Below are positions 13,734-48,076 of a DNA stretch of 52,743 nt, one piece after another. Positions within the stretch are counted from its first letter, which is position 1, and every line of letters starts with the position of its first letter. This stretch comes from Nitrososphaeraceae archaeon (GTDB lineage: Archaea; Thermoproteota; Nitrososphaeria; Nitrososphaerales; Nitrososphaeraceae), in the NCBI GenBank assembly GCA_013114725.1, contig QCWD01000001.1, forward strand, positions 1-52,743. The letters run 5' to 3'. Under the pieces are notes generated by a model that was given only the letters and a program-made list of their open reading frames with translations, was not told the origin of the DNA and did no database searches. A program made the translations under genes and the position numbers.

Positions 13734-14594
13734 TTAATTTATAATAAAACTAGCTTTCATGTATGGATGAATAGTGCAGAAATATTCATAAGTACCTTTT
13801 GGAAATTTGGTTATATCCAAAGAATATTCTTTTTCTTTCATTATTAGTTGTGAATCAAATGTTTTACCGTCATCTTTTAAGCTCGTGACTGTATGAGGAA
13901 CGTTGTCAACATTTCGCCAGGTTATACCTGGTTCAGAATTAATTTGTAAAACATCTGGCCCATAGTCAGGGTTTCCTTGTGCAGAAGAGCCGGCAAGAAT
14001 ATCAACTTGAGCATATTTTGAGACATCAGTTGTGGGAGTGGAGGATACATCCGTTTTTACCTCACCAGCCTCTGAAGATGGGGATGACGCATCAGTAGAT
14101 TGTGTAAAACCTTGAAGCGAATAAAGAACTACAACACCAATGATAGTCATTCCAAGAAAGATTCCGTATAATATTTTCATCTTTTGGTAATTTCTATAAA
14201 AAGCAACAACTATTGCTGCAGCAGGAACTGATATCAAGGCCATAATAAAAATATATATAAAAATACTTGAGGCCATGCCGCTGACTGAAATAGCTCCTAA
14301 AAATCCACATCCAACCAATATTGTCAGACTTATTGCTGTAGCAACCTTTGATTTTTTTGAAGTTGGAAATCCATCTTTAAATAGACCTGCCACAAGAAAA
14401 ATGAGACCGATCGTCATAGTTAAAAATGTTAAAGCATGCATTCCATCAATGAATGTCTTTGCCAAACCAGATAACGAAATTCCCACACCTATAGCTCCTA
14501 TTGCACTAAGTCCTATCCCAGGTGTAAGCAAGTCCCAATCAGACATTTTGGATAATGTTACTGTTGGAAAATTTGTATAATTTAATCTTTTCAT
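13734..14594 (-). CDS. Membrane-anchored blue copper protein (amicyanin/plastocyanin-like)
   Basis: An electron carrier of the copper-rich respiratory system of ammonia-oxidising archaea. The N-terminal half has about five hydrophobic helices (GIGLSAIGAIGVGISLSGLA through ILYGIFLGMTIIGVVVLYSL). A Ser/Thr-rich linker (about 166-190) leads to a cupredoxin domain with type 1 copper ligands His234 (VPHTVTS), Cys273, His276 and Met279 in CTIHPYM, an amicyanin-type spacing. The long ORF starts at 14594, but the TATA-like AAATTATACAAA lies inside it and suggests the ATG at 14546 (Met17) as the true start. It is divergent from ctaB. Confidence 0.88.
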   Translation of the reverse strand: MKRLNYTNFPTVTLSKMSDWDLLTPGIGLSAIGAIGVGISLSGLAKTFIDGMHALTFLTMTIGLIFLVAGLFKDGFPTSKKSKVATAISLTILVGCGFLGAISVSGMASSIFIYIFIMALISVPAAAIVVAFYRNYQKMKILYGIFLGMTIIGVVVLYSLQGFTQSTDASSPSSEAGEVKTDVSSTPTTDVSKYAQVDILAGSSAQGNPDYGPDVLQINSEPGITWRNVDNVPHTVTSLKDDGKTFDSQLIMKEKEYSLDITKFPKGTYEYFCTIHPYMKASFIIN

Positions 14595-14647: not shown

Positions 14648-15568
14648 GTGAAAAATGGAAAATGGAGAATTAATGGGGTGCTTTTGTTAAAAGATTATAT
14701 CGAGGTTTCTAAGCCAAGGATAGTAGTAGTTCTTGTAATTACGGCAGTTACTTCTTTTTTAGGTGCTACACGATTTGATTCGACCCCAACCGTTGCATGG
14801 GATATTAACATCTGGAAATTGTTATTTTTAATACTTTCTGGTACAATAGCATCGATGGGTTCTAGTGCATTAAATCACTACTATGACAGAGACATTGATA
14901 GAATTATGGAAAGGACTTCAAACAGACCAATTCCTGCAGGAAGATTGGCTGCAAGAAACGTATTGATTTATGGTTTAGCCTTATCTGTAATTTCAGTAAT
15001 TATATCATGGTTTACATTAAATCCAGTTGCAACCCTGATGATAGCCATTGGGATATTTTTTTATGTTATCATTTATACATCTTGGTTAAAACGTTCAAAT
15101 TCTTCCAATATTGTTATTGGTGGATTTGCAGGTAGTGCAGCATCTATGGCAGGATGGGCAACGACAACTGGAAGTATGGACATATTGGGATTTTTAGTAG
15201 GATGGATTGTTTTTATGTGGACTCCACCACATTTTTGGTGCCTTGCAATAAAAACAAGAGAAGAATACGAATCTGTTAAAGTTCCGATGTTGCCGGTAAT
15301 CATAGGAAATGAAAAGACCGCAAAATATATTTTGATAAATACTGCAATATTATTGCCTTATTCTTTATCGCTGTATTTTTTTGGGTTAGGACTTGTTTAT
15401 GTTGCTGTTGCTGCCATTTCTGGAACCTTAATGTTAATTTATCATTATAAATTGACTAAAAACCCTACACCGCAATTTGCTTGGAAGGCGTATAAAGTAA
15501 CAGCACCTTATTTGGTTATAATTTTTGTAGCAATTGCAGTTGACGTATTTTTTTATTTCAGACTATAG
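14648..15568 (+). CDS. ctaB: Protoheme IX farnesyltransferase (heme o synthase)
   Basis: A UbiA-superfamily membrane enzyme that adds a farnesyl-type tail to heme b for terminal oxidases. About 306 residues with seven to nine hydrophobic helices. The first Asp-rich motif is NHYYDRDIDRIMERT with SNRPIPAGRL, and the second region is PPHFWCLAIKTREEYESV then KVPMLPVIIG, both diagnostic of CtaB. GTG at 14648 gives the longest frame; GTG at 14678 (MLLLKDYIEVSKPRI) gives the usual family N-terminus and may be the true start. It diverges from the blue copper gene, consistent with shared use in respiration. Confidence 0.94.
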   Translation: MKNGKWRINGVLLLKDYIEVSKPRIVVVLVITAVTSFLGATRFDSTPTVAWDINIWKLLFLILSGTIASMGSSALNHYYDRDIDRIMERTSNRPIPAGRLAARNVLIYGLALSVISVIISWFTLNPVATLMIAIGIFFYVIIYTSWLKRSNSSNIVIGGFAGSAASMAGWATTTGSMDILGFLVGWIVFMWTPPHFWCLAIKTREEYESVKVPMLPVIIGNEKTAKYILINTAILLPYSLSLYFFGLGLVYVAVAAISGTLMLIYHYKLTKNPTPQFAWKAYKVTAPYLVIIFVAIAVDVFFYFRL

Positions 15569-40466: not shown

Positions 40467-41747
40467 TTATTTTTTTAATATTGAGATGGCTTCACCGTAT
40501 GCATCTATTGTTTTATCTACATCTTCCTCAGTATGTGAAAATGATAGAAAACATGTTTCAAATTGAGATGGTGGTATAAAAATATCTTTTTTTAATAACT
40601 CAAAATATAATTTTTTAAACATGTCAAGATCGGATTTTAATGCGTCCTGATAGTTAACAACTTTGTTTTTTGAAAAGAATATCTGATACATGGATCCTAT
40701 GGCGTTGACTGTCGCGTCAATTCCTTTTTCTTTTATAAAATCTTTTATCGCGTCTACGATACGATCGCAATTTTTACCTAGTTTTGGGTAGAGTGTATTT
40801 TTTGCCTCAATCAACGTGTCAATTGTCGCAAGCGATGCAGTGACTGAAACAGGATTTCCCGCGTAGGTGCTGGCCTGATATACACTACCAGAAGGAGCAA
40901 GTTGTGACATTATTTCCTTTTTTCCACATATGGCAGATATTGGAAAACCATTTCCAAGTGCTTTTGCAAAAGTTGCGATATCAGGTTTTATACCAAAAAA
41001 TTCACTGGCACCTCCAAGCGCAAGTCTAAATCCTGTGATGACTTCATCAAATATCAAAACAATATTGTGTTTTTTTGTAAGTTTCCTTATCTCATACAAA
41101 AAATTTGTTTCGGGCAATATTACACCAACATTGGCGCATATTGGTTCCATGATAATACATGCAACATCCTCGCCTTTTTTTTCATCTTCAATTTTCTCCT
41201 TCAAAATTTCAATGTTATTGAATGGTAACACTTCAGTGTTACGAGATTCTGGCATGGATTCGCCAGAGGTAGAAAGAGTGGCCCCAGAACCTGCTTTAAC
41301 CAAAACTTCATCATAGGCGCCATGATAACTACCGTCAAATTTGACGATGGTTTTTTTTTGTGTATATGCTCTGGCCAGTCTTATTGCATGCATAGTGGCC
41401 TCTGAACCAGTATTTACTATTCTGGCCATTTCACAACAAGGAACGATTTTGGATAATACTTCTGCAAGTTGTACTTCCTTTTCAGTAGGTATACAAAATA
41501 ACGAACCACGGTCTAATTGTTCCTTGATGCGACCCATAACACCTTTGTATGAATGTCCTAAAATCAGAGCCCCATAACCCAAACAGTAATCAATCAATGT
41601 TTGATGGTCTTGTGTGATAATTTTGCTACCAATTCCAGATGAAACAAAGAAAGGATGTGGTTCGTAATATCTGACTGGACTGTTAACTCCTTTAGGAAGT
41701 ACCTTTTCGGCTCGTGAAAATAAAGAACGTGAATAATCGAAATTCAA
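40467..41747 (-). CDS. hemL: Glutamate-1-semialdehyde 2,1-aminomutase
   Basis: Makes 5-aminolevulinate from glutamate-1-semialdehyde, the second step of the C5 pathway. The 426 residues show LPKGVNSPVRYYEPHPFFVS, IDYCLGYGALILGHSYKGVM, FDGSYHGAYDEVLVKAGSGA, LIFDEVITGFRLALGGASEF and PLP-binding Lys in FAKALGNGFPISAICG, all typical of HemL. Start is TTG at 41747. It is the first gene of the second part of the heme cluster and would follow hemB directly if the intervening block were absent. Confidence 0.96.
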   Translation of the reverse strand: MNFDYSRSLFSRAEKVLPKGVNSPVRYYEPHPFFVSSGIGSKIITQDHQTLIDYCLGYGALILGHSYKGVMGRIKEQLDRGSLFCIPTEKEVQLAEVLSKIVPCCEMARIVNTGSEATMHAIRLARAYTQKKTIVKFDGSYHGAYDEVLVKAGSGATLSTSGESMPESRNTEVLPFNNIEILKEKIEDEKKGEDVACIIMEPICANVGVILPETNFLYEIRKLTKKHNIVLIFDEVITGFRLALGGASEFFGIKPDIATFAKALGNGFPISAICGKKEIMSQLAPSGSVYQASTYAGNPVSVTASLATIDTLIEAKNTLYPKLGKNCDRIVDAIKDFIKEKGIDATVNAIGSMYQIFFSKNKVVNYQDALKSDLDMFKKLYFELLKKDIFIPPSQFETCFLSFSHTEEDVDKTIDAYGEAISILKK

Positions 41748-41944
41748 CTATCATTTTATTATTTTAGAGAAATATAAATAATAATTGAAAAGATCGGCAT
41801 TCTTGCACAAATGTGGTAAAGAATGATAAAAAATAATAAATCATAATCGGCAATACAAAAATAAAAATCAGAAATTTATTGATGTACTGTCAATGCAGGT
41901 ATATCCATGCAACACACAATTACGAGTTTTCAAAAAAGTCGGGG

Positions 41945-42877
41945 TTAGTTACCAGATTTAAATAAAAACCGCTGTCCATGTAATTCATTTAGAATCAAAG
42001 TAGGAAAAACGTTACACGTGCTCTTTATGTATTCATTTATTTTCCAAATCAAATCAGATGATCTTCCCTCTATTATCTTATTCCAATCTGAAAGTCTGTA
42101 CCGTGAAAAAAAATTTAGACTGAAGATAAAAAGAATCTCTCGGGTTAACTCATGAACAGAATATTGATTTCTCGTGGTTTGTTCTGGAATATCTACAAAG
42201 TAATTATCATTTTTAAAATAGATATCGTATTCTGATATAGGCAGGTTAATAAAAAGGTCCGTCCAGTCGAATCTATATTCATGTAGATATATTCGTGGGT
42301 CGGAAAAATAACAATCAAGAGACCTTGCAAAAGATCCGGTTATTTTGCAGACAACGGTATTATTTTCCATATATAATCCAGATGCCGAACCTTTACTAAT
42401 CTGACTTTTCCGAAATGTGGACAGAAATAAAATTTTTAACAGTCTGGCATAACAATTATACAATAAAATTGGTTTTGTTATCAATGAGACGATCTTGGAT
42501 GTATTAAAAAAGTCTATTGCTTGTTTTGCCAACAATACTATTTCTTCGGCATTAGTTACCAAATTGTTGGAGGTAAGTCTCTCATGGATTTCAGGAAGAT
42601 TTTTATCATTTTTACCTTCAGTTTTATTTAGGTTCATAAATTCTTTCTTTAATTTATTTGTTTTAGAAATATCGATATCAAAAAAATTTTCTTTAATTCG
42701 TTCGTTTAAAAGATTATAAACATATGAAAAACTGGTTAGTCGGTCAATAAAATTCCATATATCGGCTTCTCGTTGATATGTGTTTATTATTTTTTGACCT
42801 CTATAATTTATCGTATTTGAGGTTTTACTTGCTTGTTCTTTCATTTTTCTATAATAATATATTGATATAGACAGCAT
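41945..42877 (-). CDS. YaaC-like protein, function unknown
   Basis: 310 residues resembling the YaaC family (known mainly from Firmicutes): an N-terminal helical part with ADIWNFIDRLTSFSYVYNLL, then SLITKPILLYNCYARLLKIL, a KPxLLYY-like block, FRKSQISKGSASGLYMENNT and KITGSFARSLDCYF, matching the HG...G-F positions. Relatives have no established activity. Start is ATG at 42877 (MLSISIYYYRK); Met12 is an alternative. It lies between hemB and hemL, divergent from the methyltransferase gene with a 113-base gap, so it belongs to an inserted block rather than to heme synthesis. Confidence 0.55.
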   Translation of the reverse strand: MLSISIYYYRKMKEQASKTSNTINYRGQKIINTYQREADIWNFIDRLTSFSYVYNLLNERIKENFFDIDISKTNKLKKEFMNLNKTEGKNDKNLPEIHERLTSNNLVTNAEEIVLLAKQAIDFFNTSKIVSLITKPILLYNCYARLLKILFLSTFRKSQISKGSASGLYMENNTVVCKITGSFARSLDCYFSDPRIYLHEYRFDWTDLFINLPISEYDIYFKNDNYFVDIPEQTTRNQYSVHELTREILFIFSLNFFSRYRLSDWNKIIEGRSSDLIWKINEYIKSTCNVFPTLILNELHGQRFLFKSGN

Positions 42878-42990
42878 AAAAATATAACATTATTTTCAAT
42901 AAACAGGCACTTTTAATTTTCATGTCAATCGAAAATACCGTTTAACATGATTGTATAATAGATAATAGCAACGTAGTATGTATATATATA

Positions 42991-43674
42991 ATGATTACCG
43001 AGGGTCAAATTCTGGCACGAAAATATTTTGCACCGACAAATGCTCAGAGTTATGATAAAATTGTAAAATATACAACTTTTGGTAGAGATTCGGTATGGAA
43101 AAAATGTATAGCAAAAAAACTTAAAGATCATAAATCTATCCTAGATCTGGCATGTGGAACAGGAATATGTTCGTCATATATTTCATTAAATAGAGATATC
43201 AAAATCACTGGGGTGGATCTTACATTTGATTATATTTTAATGGCAAAGGATAAAAAAAGGTATTCATTTTTAGCAAATTCTATTGCTGAGTGTCTACCTT
43301 TTAAAGATGCATCATTTGATGCAACAATATCATCATACTTGGCCAAATATGCAGACCTGTCTTCCCTAACCAAAGAGATATGGAGAGTATTGGATAATAA
43401 TGGAACCGTTGTCTTTCATGATTTTATTTATCCAAGAAAAGAATACATGAAAATAGGCTGGAATTGCTATTTTATTATATTAAACCAGATAATAGGCAGG
43501 ATTGTAAAATCATGGTCACATGTATTTTCTGACCTTGACAAGGTAATTAAAAATAGTAGATGGGAAAAAGATTTGGTAAAGGAACTTGAAAAAACTGGAT
43601 TCGAGAATATAAACACAATTTACCAAACTGGAGAAACTTCAGCTATTATAACTGCAAATAAAACTAAGAGATAG
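42991..43674 (+). CDS. UbiE/MenG-like SAM methyltransferase
   Basis: 227 residues with a class I methyltransferase core: SILDLACGTGICSSYISLNR (motif I), ITGVDLTFDYILMAKDKKRY, LANSIAECLPFKDASFDATI, then YLAKYADLSSLTKEIWRVLD and NGTVVFHDFIYPRKEY. The pattern resembles quinone C-methyltransferases (UbiE/MenG), including the FKDASFD segment and HDFIYP, but many small-molecule methyltransferases share it. First of three same-strand genes with gaps of 3-4 bases. ATG at 42991. Product and pathway are inferred from the neighbours. Confidence 0.8.
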   Translation: MITEGQILARKYFAPTNAQSYDKIVKYTTFGRDSVWKKCIAKKLKDHKSILDLACGTGICSSYISLNRDIKITGVDLTFDYILMAKDKKRYSFLANSIAECLPFKDASFDATISSYLAKYADLSSLTKEIWRVLDNNGTVVFHDFIYPRKEYMKIGWNCYFIILNQIIGRIVKSWSHVFSDLDKVIKNSRWEKDLVKELEKTGFENINTIYQTGETSAIITANKTKR

Positions 43675-43677
43675 AAC

Positions 43678-44394
43678 ATGAAAGAAATGGACACAACACG
43701 TATTAATGAATGGTTTGTTCCAAAATTTGGGCCTATAAAATTTAGGATTTTCATTGGAATGCTTTTTCTTCCATATACTGGAATGTGTGTCTCATTTACG
43801 ATTATTGGTTGTATGCTGGCAGATGTTATATATTGGGACCGGGTGTTGGCTATTTCAATCATTTATTTTTTGGCTCTGGGAATATCCGCGCATATAGCAG
43901 ATAATTTAGGTTCAAAAAAAATAAAACCATGGGGAAACTACTGGACAAAATCACATTTAAAGGCGATATTGATTGTAAGTATTCTAATTGCTTATTCTAT
44001 AGGTATTTATTATATAGTCACATCAACTTTTTTACTAATAATCATAGCCATATTAGAAGGATTTTTCTTGTTCGCCTACAACTATGAACTTTTTAATGGA
44101 AGATTCCACAATAGTTTTTGGTTTGCAATCTCGTGGGGATCGTTGCCACTGTTAGCCGGATACATTATTCAAACCAATTCAATTTCGGTATTAGTTCTAG
44201 TTTTGTCATCGATAACTTTTTCAATATCACTTTTGGAAATTCGCATATCAAAAAGGTACAAGAGTTTTAAACAAGAATCAAAAGACCGGAACGATAAGAC
44301 AATAAAAAAATTAGAAAATATTTTAAGGGTTATCAGCATCTGTACTATTCTATTTACAAGTATATTAGTAATTTTAAGATATTATATTAATTAA
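43678..44394 (+). CDS. UbiA-like integral membrane protein (putative prenyltransferase)
   Basis: 238 residues with about seven hydrophobic helices. LALGISAHIADNLGSKKIKP and FLFAYNYELFNGRFHNSFWF occupy the places of the two Asp-rich regions of UbiA prenyltransferases, but the NDxxDxxxD signature is not intact, so this is a divergent member or a look-alike. Other parts are WGSLPLLAGYIIQT and a basic C-terminal loop. It starts three bases after the methyltransferase stop (ATG at 43678) and is followed after four bases by a chorismate-lyase-like gene, which supports attachment of an isoprenoid to an aromatic head. Confidence in the fold is moderate, in the reaction low. Confidence 0.5.
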   Translation: MKEMDTTRINEWFVPKFGPIKFRIFIGMLFLPYTGMCVSFTIIGCMLADVIYWDRVLAISIIYFLALGISAHIADNLGSKKIKPWGNYWTKSHLKAILIVSILIAYSIGIYYIVTSTFLLIIIAILEGFFLFAYNYELFNGRFHNSFWFAISWGSLPLLAGYIIQTNSISVLVLVLSSITFSISLLEIRISKRYKSFKQESKDRNDKTIKKLENILRVISICTILFTSILVILRYYIN

Positions 44395-44398
44395 TAAA

Positions 44399-44932
44399 AT
44401 GGAAAGTGATTGTAGAAAACATTTTGTTTTCAGAAAATACACCAGCAGATTATCTTTTGGTATCAGAGAAATTTCTGATTTTGAAAAAATAGTTCGTGTA
44501 AAATTAAAACCATATGAAAAAATATTATTAATTAACACAGGAATGACAGAAAACATTCTTCGAATAATTGTAGGTTCGCCTGTAAAAATAAATGTGTTGT
44601 ATCAGAAGGCACAAAAGAATATCATTTTGCGCAAAGTCCAAATAGAGTTGGAGGAAAATCCAGAACTAGTTCTGTTAATAGCTTATTCAAAAATAAATGT
44701 AAAATGTGTGCCAATAAAAATTTTAAATAAAATAAAAAAAATGGAAAGTGGAATAGGAATGATTATTGAGTCCGCACGATTAGAAACATATAAAAAAATT
44801 ATAGAAGTTGGATACAATCCCAGAGATTTCAAATTATATCGAGAATATTATATACTATACGAAAAACAGAAAATGATGAAAATAAAAGAAATTTTTCTAT
44901 TAAATAATTTAAAAAAGTGTAAAATTCATTAA
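44399..44932 (+). CDS. Chorismate pyruvate-lyase-like protein (UbiC/DUF98 family)
   Basis: 177 residues with the layout of the DUF98 chorismate lyase group: KLKPYEKILLINTGMTENIL, IIVGSPVKINVLYQ, an ILRKVQIELE block with the conserved Arg, LVLLIAYSKINVKCVPIKIL, and GIGMIIESARLETYKKIIEV with the conserved Glu and the final helix. Members split chorismate to 4-hydroxybenzoate, a precursor for quinones, for methanopterin and for mycobacterial glycolipids. Sequence is divergent and the call rests on pattern. ATG at 44399. Context with UbiE- and UbiA-like genes makes 4-hydroxybenzoate-based synthesis the leading idea. Confidence 0.55.
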   Translation: MESDCRKHFVFRKYTSRLSFGIREISDFEKIVRVKLKPYEKILLINTGMTENILRIIVGSPVKINVLYQKAQKNIILRKVQIELEENPELVLLIAYSKINVKCVPIKILNKIKKMESGIGMIIESARLETYKKIIEVGYNPRDFKLYREYYILYEKQKMMKIKEIFLLNNLKKCKIH

Positions 44933-45118
44933 AACGTGAAATCCGCTGTGTTGTAATTATAATATGATAAAACTGACAAGCAAATAATGTAAAAATATAC
45001 TTATGAAAAGACTAAAAATCCACTTAAAAATAGGATAGCAAAACTGGTTCATGTTATCGTGGGTTCAACAGATAATATGGACCAACAAGCAATTTGTTTT
45101 TAATGATATTAAATTTTT

Positions 45119-46126
45119 TTATTCGTCTAATAACTGTGCCATTCTTTTTGCGTGATATGTAATTATCATGTCTGCTCCCGCCCTCTTTATGGATACCAAA
45201 AGTTCGGTCATTACATTGTCTTCGCTTAACCATCCTTCCAACGCAGCAGCTTTTATCATTGCGTATTCACCTGAAACACTATATGCACAAACGGGGGTAG
45301 TGGTCATTTCTCTTATCTGGTAGATTAAATCCAAGTAAGGAATTGCCGGTTTTACCATAACAATATCCGCACCTTCATTTATATCAGTCTCCACCTCTTT
45401 TAATGCCTCATTACGATTTGTAAATGGCATTTGATATGATTTTCTATCACCAAATTCGGGATATGAATTTGCGGCATCCCTAAAAGGCCCGTAAAGAGGA
45501 GATGCAAGCTTTGCAGAATATCCTATAATGCCAGTATCGGTAAAACCATTACTATCAAGATTTTCTCTGATGGCATGAACCTGTCCATCCATCATAGCCG
45601 AAGGAGCAATCATATCCGCCCCTGCACGTGCATGGCTTGTTGCAATTTTTCCCAAAATCTGTAAACTTGAATCATTGTCGACGGTCTTGTTTTTTACAAT
45701 TCCACAATGGCCTGTTGATGTATACTGACACATACATGCATCAGTAATAATAGCCAATTTTTCACCATAGTTTTTCCGAATATGTCTGACTGTTCGTTGT
45801 ACTATCCCATCATCATCAAATGCAGATGTCGCATTATCATCTTTATTTGATGGAATACCAAACAATATAATAGCTTTTATGCCCAGATCAATAATGGACT
45901 CTATCTCGTTATCGATATTTTTTAATGGAAATCGTTTGATTTCGCCCATGGATTTAATTTTTACAGGTTTTGAAATTCCTTCCTGTACAAAAATTGGGCA
46001 GATTAAATCTTTTTTGGAAAGATGTATTTCTTGCATCAGATCTCGGATTGCCTGATTTTTTCTAAGACGTCTAAGTCTTACTTTAGGATAGGCAACAAGT
46101 GAGCTATTAAACATTGTGTCTATCAT
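45119..46126 (-). CDS. hemB: Porphobilinogen synthase (ALA dehydratase)
   Basis: Condenses two 5-aminolevulinates to porphobilinogen. The 335 residues show the zinc-type metal site CMCQYTSTGHCG (Cys131, Cys133, Cys141), active-site Lys206 in GYSAKLASPLYGPFRDAA and Lys259 in MVKPAIPYLDLI, plus IAPSAMMDGQVHAIRENL. Length is normal. ATG at 46126, overlapping the end of hemA by 20 bases. In many relatives hemL would come next; here it is 3.4 kb away past an inserted block. Confidence 0.97.
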   Translation of the reverse strand: MIDTMFNSSLVAYPKVRLRRLRKNQAIRDLMQEIHLSKKDLICPIFVQEGISKPVKIKSMGEIKRFPLKNIDNEIESIIDLGIKAIILFGIPSNKDDNATSAFDDDGIVQRTVRHIRKNYGEKLAIITDACMCQYTSTGHCGIVKNKTVDNDSSLQILGKIATSHARAGADMIAPSAMMDGQVHAIRENLDSNGFTDTGIIGYSAKLASPLYGPFRDAANSYPEFGDRKSYQMPFTNRNEALKEVETDINEGADIVMVKPAIPYLDLIYQIREMTTTPVCAYSVSGEYAMIKAAALEGWLSEDNVMTELLVSIKRAGADMIITYHAKRMAQLLDE

Positions 46127-47405
46127 TTTCGTAATTAAATATTTTTTCCATAATTTTCATTATTTCATGTTCTTTACCAAATAGATCCCCATCTTGAACT
46201 TCTCTACGAAGATTGTTCATTGGGGTTGACATTATTCCTTCAAGAAGTGCGTGTGAGAATTGTTCCAATATTTTCAATTCTCTATCACCTAGATCTTTAC
46301 CCAATATGGATAAAGCCTTTTTTAATTCACGTTCCCTTATTTTATCTACATTTCTAAAAACAGAAACAACAAATGGTTCTGCAAGCTTCCTTTTTATCAT
46401 TAGATCCATGTTTACCATTTCATCTTCGATTATTTTTTCTGCAGAATTAATCTCATTTACACGAAATTTAATATTTTTATCAACAATAGATGAAAGTTTA
46501 TCGATATTTATTAAAAGAACATTTTCAATAGATTCTACCGACTCTTCTACCGTTCTAGGATTTGAAAGATCGAATATAATTAGTGGTTTATGTCTATTGG
46601 ACATAGTTTTTTGTATCCGTTCAAAAGTTAATAAATAATAAGGAGCTGTGCTACTCACAAAAATAATATCGATATTGGATAAATTTTCTAAGGCTTTATC
46701 AAACAAAACTGGTGTTCCGGCCATCGTTTCTGAAAATGATTTCGCTCGTTCAAATGTTCTGCTTGTAACCATAAAAGGAATGTTTCTTTTGTGAAGTGGT
46801 TTTGCAACAAGACTAGCTCCTTCACCCGAACCTATCAGCAATATGTTTTGGTTTTCCAAGGTGGTGGAATACTCTTCAGCAAGATTAACGGCCACAGAAC
46901 CTACAGAAACGCTTCCTTTATTTATCCCAGTAACGTTTCTCACTTTACTTCCAACCTTGATTGCTTTATCAAAAATAAAAGATAAATTGGAACCGATATG
47001 AAGGTTTTTCTTTGAAAATTCAAAGGCTCTTTTAACCTGACCTAAAATTTGATCCTCTCCCACTACTAGAGAGTCAAGACCAGAAACTAATCGTAAAATA
47101 TGTCTAATGACGCCATCTCCACGTTCTATTTCGATAACTTCGTTTAATTCATTACCGGATATTTTTGACAAAAATGACCATCCGTTTATGATAGAGTGGT
47201 GATTGATATTATCACCTACTGCAAAGACCTCGATTCTGTTGCATGTTTGTAGGATCATACATTCATCGATTTCGCCCTGCTGTTTGAAGATCATATAAGC
47301 AGTATCAATATCTTTAAAGGTAAATTTTTCCAAGATATGAATTGGAGCTTTTCTAAAAGTTACTCGAAGATTGACAATCTCAGGAAATTTTACAACAGTA
47401 GTCAA
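46107..47405 (-). CDS. hemA: Glutamyl-tRNA reductase
   Basis: First committed step of the C5 pathway: reduces glutamyl-tRNA to glutamate-1-semialdehyde. The 432 residues have catalytic Cys55 in LQTCNRIEVFAVG, the SGLDSLVVGEDQILGQVKRA block, a NADPH-binding domain (NILLIGSGEGASLVAKPLHK) and the C-terminal dimerisation helices. Start is TTG at 47405, overlapping the TGA stop of the upstream gene (TTGA). Confidence 0.97.
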   Translation of the reverse strand: MTTVVKFPEIVNLRVTFRKAPIHILEKFTFKDIDTAYMIFKQQGEIDECMILQTCNRIEVFAVGDNINHHSIINGWSFLSKISGNELNEVIEIERGDGVIRHILRLVSGLDSLVVGEDQILGQVKRAFEFSKKNLHIGSNLSFIFDKAIKVGSKVRNVTGINKGSVSVGSVAVNLAEEYSTTLENQNILLIGSGEGASLVAKPLHKRNIPFMVTSRTFERAKSFSETMAGTPVLFDKALENLSNIDIIFVSSTAPYYLLTFERIQKTMSNRHKPLIIFDLSNPRTVEESVESIENVLLINIDKLSSIVDKNIKFRVNEINSAEKIIEDEMVNMDLMIKRKLAEPFVVSVFRNVDKIRERELKKALSILGKDLGDRELKILEQFSHALLEGIMSTPMNNLRREVQDGDLFGKEHEIMKIMEKIFNYENDRHNV

Positions 47406-48076
47406 GGGATATCATTCCCCCATCTTCTTAATAGATCAAGAGTTGCCAACCTTGCTTCCTCCACTTTATTCTCCCTAATTAATGATTGAATATTTTTATC
47501 ATTAATAATAGAATATAAGAATGCTTTTCTTTCTTTAACCGTTTTTATGATAAGCCTTGCTTCATATCTAGCAAATTCTTGTAACTTGGCATTCTCAATA
47601 TCTGATGGAGTGATTATTTTTCGGATTATTCTTTCGGCTTTCATTCTAATTTTTCTTGCCATAATCGGACTTTTACCTTCAGTCGATATAGCTACTTGCA
47701 TCACACCCTCTATATTTATGATTGATGCATAGGAAAAATCACTATACTGCGGATCATCTACAGAATAAACAAAAGCTCCAAATGTCCGTCCCTTATTGAC
47801 CATAGCGCGATTTAGTTTTCTGTCATCTGTAGATGCTAACAATAGAAAGGAATCCTTATAATTATCCAAAAAATCTAGATTTGAATTATCTATCTTTTTT
47901 TTGATGATTTCTATCTTGCCTTCGTTAGCTAAATTTTTAAAATAAGAATTTAATCGGTTGCTGATGACAGTAATTTTACAATTTTGTCCTAAAAGACCGT
48001 TAACCTTTCTCATACCTTCCGTTCCGCCTCCGATAACTAGGACTTTTTTTCCTCTAAGGTTAAGGTCAACAATCAC
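47402..48076 (-). CDS. Precorrin-2 dehydrogenase / sirohydrochlorin ferrochelatase-type protein (CysG N-terminal/Met8-like)
   Basis: NAD-dependent oxidation of precorrin-2 to sirohydrochlorin, toward siroheme (sulfite or nitrite reductase) or heme via the siroheme branch. The 224 residues start MIVDLNLRGKKVLVIGGGTE with a Rossmann GxGxxx motif, followed by a long EIIKKKIDNSNLDFLDNYKD and FLLLASTDDRKLNRAMVNKG, then a helical C-terminal dimer domain. GTG at 48076. First gene of the cluster. Confidence 0.92.
   Translation of the reverse strand: MIVDLNLRGKKVLVIGGGTEGMRKVNGLLGQNCKITVISNRLNSYFKNLANEGKIEIIKKKIDNSNLDFLDNYKDSFLLLASTDDRKLNRAMVNKGRTFGAFVYSVDDPQYSDFSYASIINIEGVMQVAISTEGKSPIMARKIRMKAERIIRKIITPSDIENAKLQEFARYEARLIIKTVKERKAFLYSIINDKNIQSLIRENKVEEARLATLDLLRRWGNDIP

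Follow-up and report, generated by a model that had tools for sequence, protein, structure and literature searches.

A conserved three-gene cassette of ammonia-oxidising archaea, with a predicted role in prenyl-lipid synthesis, and its partial counterpart in bacteria

Few microbes of soil and sea are as common as ammonia-oxidising archaea. In the literature searched, the isoprenoid quinones reported for them are menaquinones only, and Nitrosopumilus maritimus is a menaquinone producer (PMC8674956). Archaeal menaquinones with saturated tails exist, with Archaeoglobus as the named example (PMC13386864). The ubiquinone pathway of Pseudomonadota has steps analogous to those considered here, with UbiC as chorismate lyase, UbiA prenylating 4-hydroxybenzoate and UbiE acting in C-methylation. 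Among nitrifiers, the methyl-plastoquinone (Mpq) pathway of Nitrospirota likewise has UbiA-E-like enzymes (PMC13386864). The cargo of the element ICE-2 of Ca. Nitrosocaldus cavascurensis was annotated as CHLP, GGPS, UbiC, UbiA, RmlB and UbiE, as given in the legend of Figure 8 of PMC5797428. Judging from the available portion of that paper, what is already known is the annotation of this gene set at one locus.

Gene layout and protein families

The window, the whole stretch of DNA analysed here, comprises 52,743 nucleotides, and its contig belongs to a 1.9-Mb Nitrososphaeraceae genome. Three consecutive genes on the + strand encode a UbiE/COQ5-type SAM methyltransferase of 227 aa (P0001, 42991..43674), a small UbiA-superfamily membrane protein of 238 aa with about 8 helices (P0002, 43678..44394), and a predicted chorismate pyruvate-lyase of the Rv2949c-like/DUF98 family of 177 aa (P0003, 44399..44932). 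They are separated by gaps of 3 bp and then 4 bp. The sequence-only reading had described three genes on one strand with gaps of 3–4 bases, encoding a UbiE-like, a divergent UbiA-like and a UbiC/DUF98-like protein, and the coordinates and family evidence agree with it.

The heme genes hemL, hemB and hemA and a siroheme-type dehydrogenase flank the cassette (window 40467-48076, −). These flanks were not found next to the trio in related loci, so the heme neighbourhood was dropped as functional context, and the linkage of the trio is more than shared background. Adjoining the heme genes of this archaeon is a YaaC-like protein (window 41945-42877, −; PF14175, 1.9e-14); the YaaC family takes its name from a Bacillus protein of unknown function. 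A canonical UbiA protein resembling heme O synthase (CtaB) is encoded elsewhere in the window (14648-15568, +), near a plastocyanin-like ORF (13734-14594).

P0001 matched PF01209 with an E-value of 6.7e-18 (65.3 bits, cut-off 20.1). Its match to TIGR01934 (4.6e-29) was under the NCBIfam cut-offs, and its scores fell short of the NCBIfam UbiE/MenG levels, with 101 bits against 158 for the subfamily model and 90 against 216 for the equivalog model. Relatives of P0001 occupy the same position in Nitrososphaeraceae with about 40–54% identity.

The profile search with P0002 alone gave no significant match. PF01040 (UbiA) was matched by 15 of its 28 relatives (best 6.4e-8). The AF2 (AlphaFold) model of P0002 had a pLDDT of 85, and its ten best PDB fold matches all belonged to the UbiA superfamily with a probability of 1.00, yet with weak E-values (0.02–0.12); the model is a helical membrane bundle as in AfUbiA, DGGGPS and UBIAD1. 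Among 95 archaeal and bacterial sequences, A71, H72, D75, E127, Y134, N135, E137, H144, W153, S191, Y194 and E213 were fully invariant. The motifs were mapped by sequence alignment, not structure superposition, taking as references the canonical UbiA proteins encoded in the same genome and in E. coli. The canonical Mg2+-diphosphate motifs NxxxDxxxD and DxxxD were not conserved. At most one canonical Asp of NxxxDxxxD is kept in the 95 sequences, and DxxxD is unrecognisable. The first motif position reads A71-H72-x-x-D75-x-x-G78-S79 and the second E/x-I-x-x-S191-R-x-Y194-K195. The active site thus appears to be rewired, with an invariant set of its own in place of most residues of the Asp-rich motifs. 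Conservation this strong speaks against decay and in favour of a working enzyme that binds metal or diphosphate in an altered way. If the enzyme is active, most of the canonical metal-binding motifs are dispensable for function in the UbiA superfamily.

P0003 alone scored 18.5 bits against PF01947 (E 0.002), under the 22-bit cut-off, and was not among the matches of the family search of its own genome at E ≤ 0.001. All 29 lyase relatives matched PF01947 (best 4.3e-9), and the lyase profile matched the DUF98 structure 2nwi (1.7e-11). The best matches of the predicted fold were 2nwi (1.1e-6) and E. coli UbiC 1g1b (8.3e-4), with UTRA-type GntR domains ranking lower. The Arg, Leu and Glu of UbiC that contact the product correspond to R78, I119 and E164. 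R78 and E164 are invariant and align with 2nwi and with R77 and E156 of E. coli UbiC in gene numbering, which we take to be R76 and E155 in crystal numbering; I119 aligns with L115 (gene numbering), Ile replacing Leu.

The third protein could instead be a ligand-binding or degenerate relative, with the three genes linked for another reason. The low single-sequence score of P0003 would fit this, as would the resemblance of the UbiC fold to UTRA regulator domains and the faster divergence of the lyase compared with the UbiA-like protein (26–40% vs 49–62% identity). We consider it improbable, given the invariant Arg and Glu at the product-contacting positions, the ranking of DUF98 and UbiC as best fold matches, and that no DNA-binding domain was found. 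From its sequence relatives and modelled fold, P0003 is predicted to be a PF01947-type chorismate lyase that would convert chorismate to 4-hydroxybenzoate. More distant PF01947-type genes (E ~1e-22) occur in G236, G241, G290, G295, G297, G298 and G304 (families f8 and f9), whose genomes are without the UbiA-like gene; they are possibly a separate lyase subfamily.

Distribution in archaea and bacteria

Every Nitrososphaeraceae locus of sufficient length to reveal it had the trio in this order. Searches over 300 genomes of the class, as tabulated, placed the UbiA-like gene in 139 genomes, the lyase in 91 and both in 80. The lyase lay directly downstream of the UbiA-like gene on the same strand in 71 of these 80; some of the remaining 9 were contig breaks or more distant PF01947 relatives. 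A set of named archaeal loci outside Nitrosocosmicus, chosen by UbiA-like sequence and not by linkage, had the lyase directly downstream in 37/37 and the methyltransferase upstream in 35/38. The sequence-only reading was to be given up if the second and third proteins failed to match their families or if the trio was not conserved together; the family matches and the joint conservation were both found. The three-gene observation is confirmed as real, and the evidence for linkage and family is strong.

Several lineages depart from the full trio. Nitrosocosmicus here includes the group G007-G009, placed with named Nitrosocosmicus loci. The lyase was absent from all 15 Nitrosocosmicus genomes, the UbiA-like gene was kept in 13 of the 14 sampled, and the methyltransferase was kept at the loci examined. 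Besides an intact UbiA-like gene, two Nitrosocosmicus-type genomes carry a fragment of it interrupted by stop codons (G009:C1:1196300-1196862 and G005:C6:50789-51175). Some other Nitrososphaeria families have the UbiA-like/UbiE pair only. Family f2 is probably Nitrosopumilaceae; its methyltransferase gene runs convergently to the UbiA-like and lyase genes.

The lyase is followed in Nitrosocaldus (L064) and family f5 (L066) by genes for a polyprenyl synthase (PF00348 shown for L064) and for a FAD protein of the GGR superfamily. A close homologue of this GGR-like protein is encoded in the genome of the window, unlinked to the cassette (G000:C178:2395-3423; L176, L182; E 2.4e-116). The same reductase family is unlinked in other Nitrososphaeraceae too (E <1e-100), and no lipid genes were recognised near it in this family. 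In f2 genomes, whether or not they carry the cassette, the only copy is more distant.

When bacterial and archaeal genomes were scanned, the UbiA-like protein turned up at about 47–55% identity in Nitrospirota, Geobacteraceae, Syntrophobacterales and a few Betaproteobacteria. The carriers include a complete Manganitrophus chromosome, so the bacterial occurrence is not simply contamination of draft MAGs. The same type of methyltransferase lay near the UbiA-like gene at 15 of 30 bacterial loci, always on the opposite strand. At several bacterial loci, genes for a polyprenyl synthase and for a protein homologous to the Nitrosocaldus reductase (25–30% identity, E ~1e-25 to 1e-36) are present as well. 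Geobacteraceae and relatives carry the UbiA-like gene, the PF00348 synthase, the GGR-like homologue and the same UbiE-type methyltransferase. In the tree, rooted at the midpoint and with long deepest archaeal branches, the 30 bacterial UbiA-like proteins formed a single group (99/98) within the archaeal ones. This distribution between the domains would fit one transfer.

At all 25 bacterial loci able to show it, no lyase was found beside the UbiA-like gene. PF01947 occurs elsewhere in 5 of 13 bacterial carrier genomes and PF04345 in 0 of 11, and several pair-bearing genomes have neither. A Troglogloeales gene of 171–191 aa adjoining the UbiA-like gene was considered as a candidate lyase and rejected, since it is MsrA. 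Since neither Nitrosocosmicus nor the bacteria have a lyase next to the UbiA-like/UbiE pair, the lyase is regarded as an archaeal add-on.

Predicted pathway and the menaquinone question

We rate at about even the chance that this conserved cassette serves as an accessory module whose product is an aromatic membrane lipid, prenylated and C-methylated, either a quinol or a phenolic lipid. From the observed gene families, folds, conserved lyase active-site residues, linkage, and synthase and reductase partners in two domains, we infer the reactions, their order and the product. The lyase would convert chorismate to 4-hydroxybenzoate and pyruvate. The UbiA-fold protein would then attach a polyprenyl group, probably C20 or longer, to the ring, and the UbiE-type enzyme would methylate the prenylated ring. 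The GGR-like enzyme, encoded next to the trio in Nitrosocaldus and elsewhere in the genome of the window, would saturate the tail. The UbiA-like step is the least certain, since the His/Asp/Glu set must serve instead of the usual Asp-rich motifs. The polyprenyl synthase and reductase join the cassette in Nitrosocaldus and the pair in Geobacteraceae and relatives, so the whole looks like saturated prenyl-lipid synthesis. On the best reading, 4-hydroxybenzoate forms the head group in genomes with the lyase, and the lipid tail is probably saturated.

The pair is wider than the lyase, extending to bacteria, Nitrosocosmicus and the pair-only Nitrososphaeria families. It persists there without the lyase, so 4-hydroxybenzoate would not be a universal substrate unless it has another source. 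The pair, synthase and reductase might thus perform prenyl-lipid chemistry without 4-hydroxybenzoate, either modifying some other acceptor or altering the isoprenoid, for instance by transferring, cyclising or C-methylating a polyprenyl chain. The lyase would then have been recruited to the archaeal operon, adding or feeding a different type of head group. The rewired UbiA-like active site and the absence of both lyase families from some bacterial carriers are in keeping with such chemistry. However, where the lyase occurs it is tightly linked to the UbiA-like gene (37/37 and 71/80). Such linkage suggests that the UbiA-like protein uses the lyase product as its substrate, and another source of 4-hydroxybenzoate is possible in bacteria and Nitrosocosmicus. 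We regard chemistry without 4-hydroxybenzoate as rather unlikely.

The sequence-only reading had proposed that the trio makes an aromatic head from chorismate, prenylates it and methylates it. Where all three genes are present, this is still the most economical account, with the families and the trio upheld. Against it, the Asp-rich motifs are mostly unconserved, the pair persists without the lyase, and no cassette-specific extra UbiD decarboxylase accompanies the cassette. Overall the pathway is partly supported, and its quinone framing is weaker. UbiD was uninformative as a co-travelling decarboxylase, since ammonia oxidisers have two copies whether or not they carry the cassette. No hydroxylase was recognised beside the cassette.

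Menaquinone synthesis requires a UbiE-type methyltransferase and a UbiA-fold protein, and the cassette might provide both for archaeal menaquinone, in line with the quinone link of the sequence-only reading, which had called an alternative or extra quinone or aromatic lipid route conceivable. Saturated-tail archaeal menaquinones (PMC13386864) and the reductase accompanying the cassette in some genomes would suit this role. The distribution of the genes argues otherwise. Nearly every ammonia-oxidising archaeon sampled has the futalosine marker PF02621 (MqnA/MqnD family), which the cassette does not track. The complete cassette-less genomes G072, G094, G111 and G128 have PF02621 and keep three canonical UbiA proteins, whereas family f4 has the UbiA-like gene and lacks PF02621. 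To our knowledge, chorismate lyase has no use in menaquinone synthesis. A menaquinone role was therefore rejected on the distribution of PF02621 and the canonical UbiA proteins, and we consider it highly improbable. Members of family f4 (e.g. G161, G221, G226) have a heme-copper oxidase and neither PF02621 nor MenB above the cut-off; the PF02621 and MenB searches gave no known route to their respiratory quinone. The cassette as the respiratory quinone pathway of f4 was unsupported, as the oxidase-bearing G161 and G221 were absent among the UbiA-like matches listed.

Comparison with known systems

An operon leading from chorismate to a methylated prenyl lipid predicts a searchable molecule, with a mass and a label. 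The lineages with the lyase, with the core pair only and with neither offer a natural contrast for study. More tentatively, and with somewhat less than even confidence, the module may make prenylated aromatic membrane lipids, possibly quinone-like, of a class not yet described, and be common to ammonia-oxidising archaea and to Nitrospirota, Geobacteraceae and relatives. It would then include a new UbiA subfamily, in which a conserved His/Asp/Glu constellation replaces the Asp motifs, and would probably have passed once between the domains. No description of how widely the cassette occurs, of its reduced version in Nitrosocosmicus and bacteria, of the rewired site or of the shared synthase and reductase partners was found in the literature searched, which included few subscription journals.

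Judged by its gene set, the L064 locus appears to correspond to ICE-2 of Ca. N. cavascurensis. As at L064, ICE-2 carries the trio with a polyprenyl synthase, a GGR-like protein and an epimerase (available portion of PMC5797428). In the same portion, these genes are annotated cargo of a single element, and no pathway, class-wide spread or bacterial counterpart is given. Compared with the Mpq pathway, the cassette methyltransferases matched the MpqE model weakly (61.9 bits for P0001, and 76.5 bits), far under the cut-off of 335. Unlike in the ubiquinone pathway, the lyase is of the PF01947 type and not PF04345, the UbiA-like protein is shorter with most Asp-rich motifs gone, and dedicated UbiD or hydroxylases were not seen. 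The cassette lyase is a divergent subfamily relative to Rv2949c/AF1396 (PF01947, DUF98), with the N-terminal part shortened in family f2; the fold and the active-site Arg and Glu are common to both.
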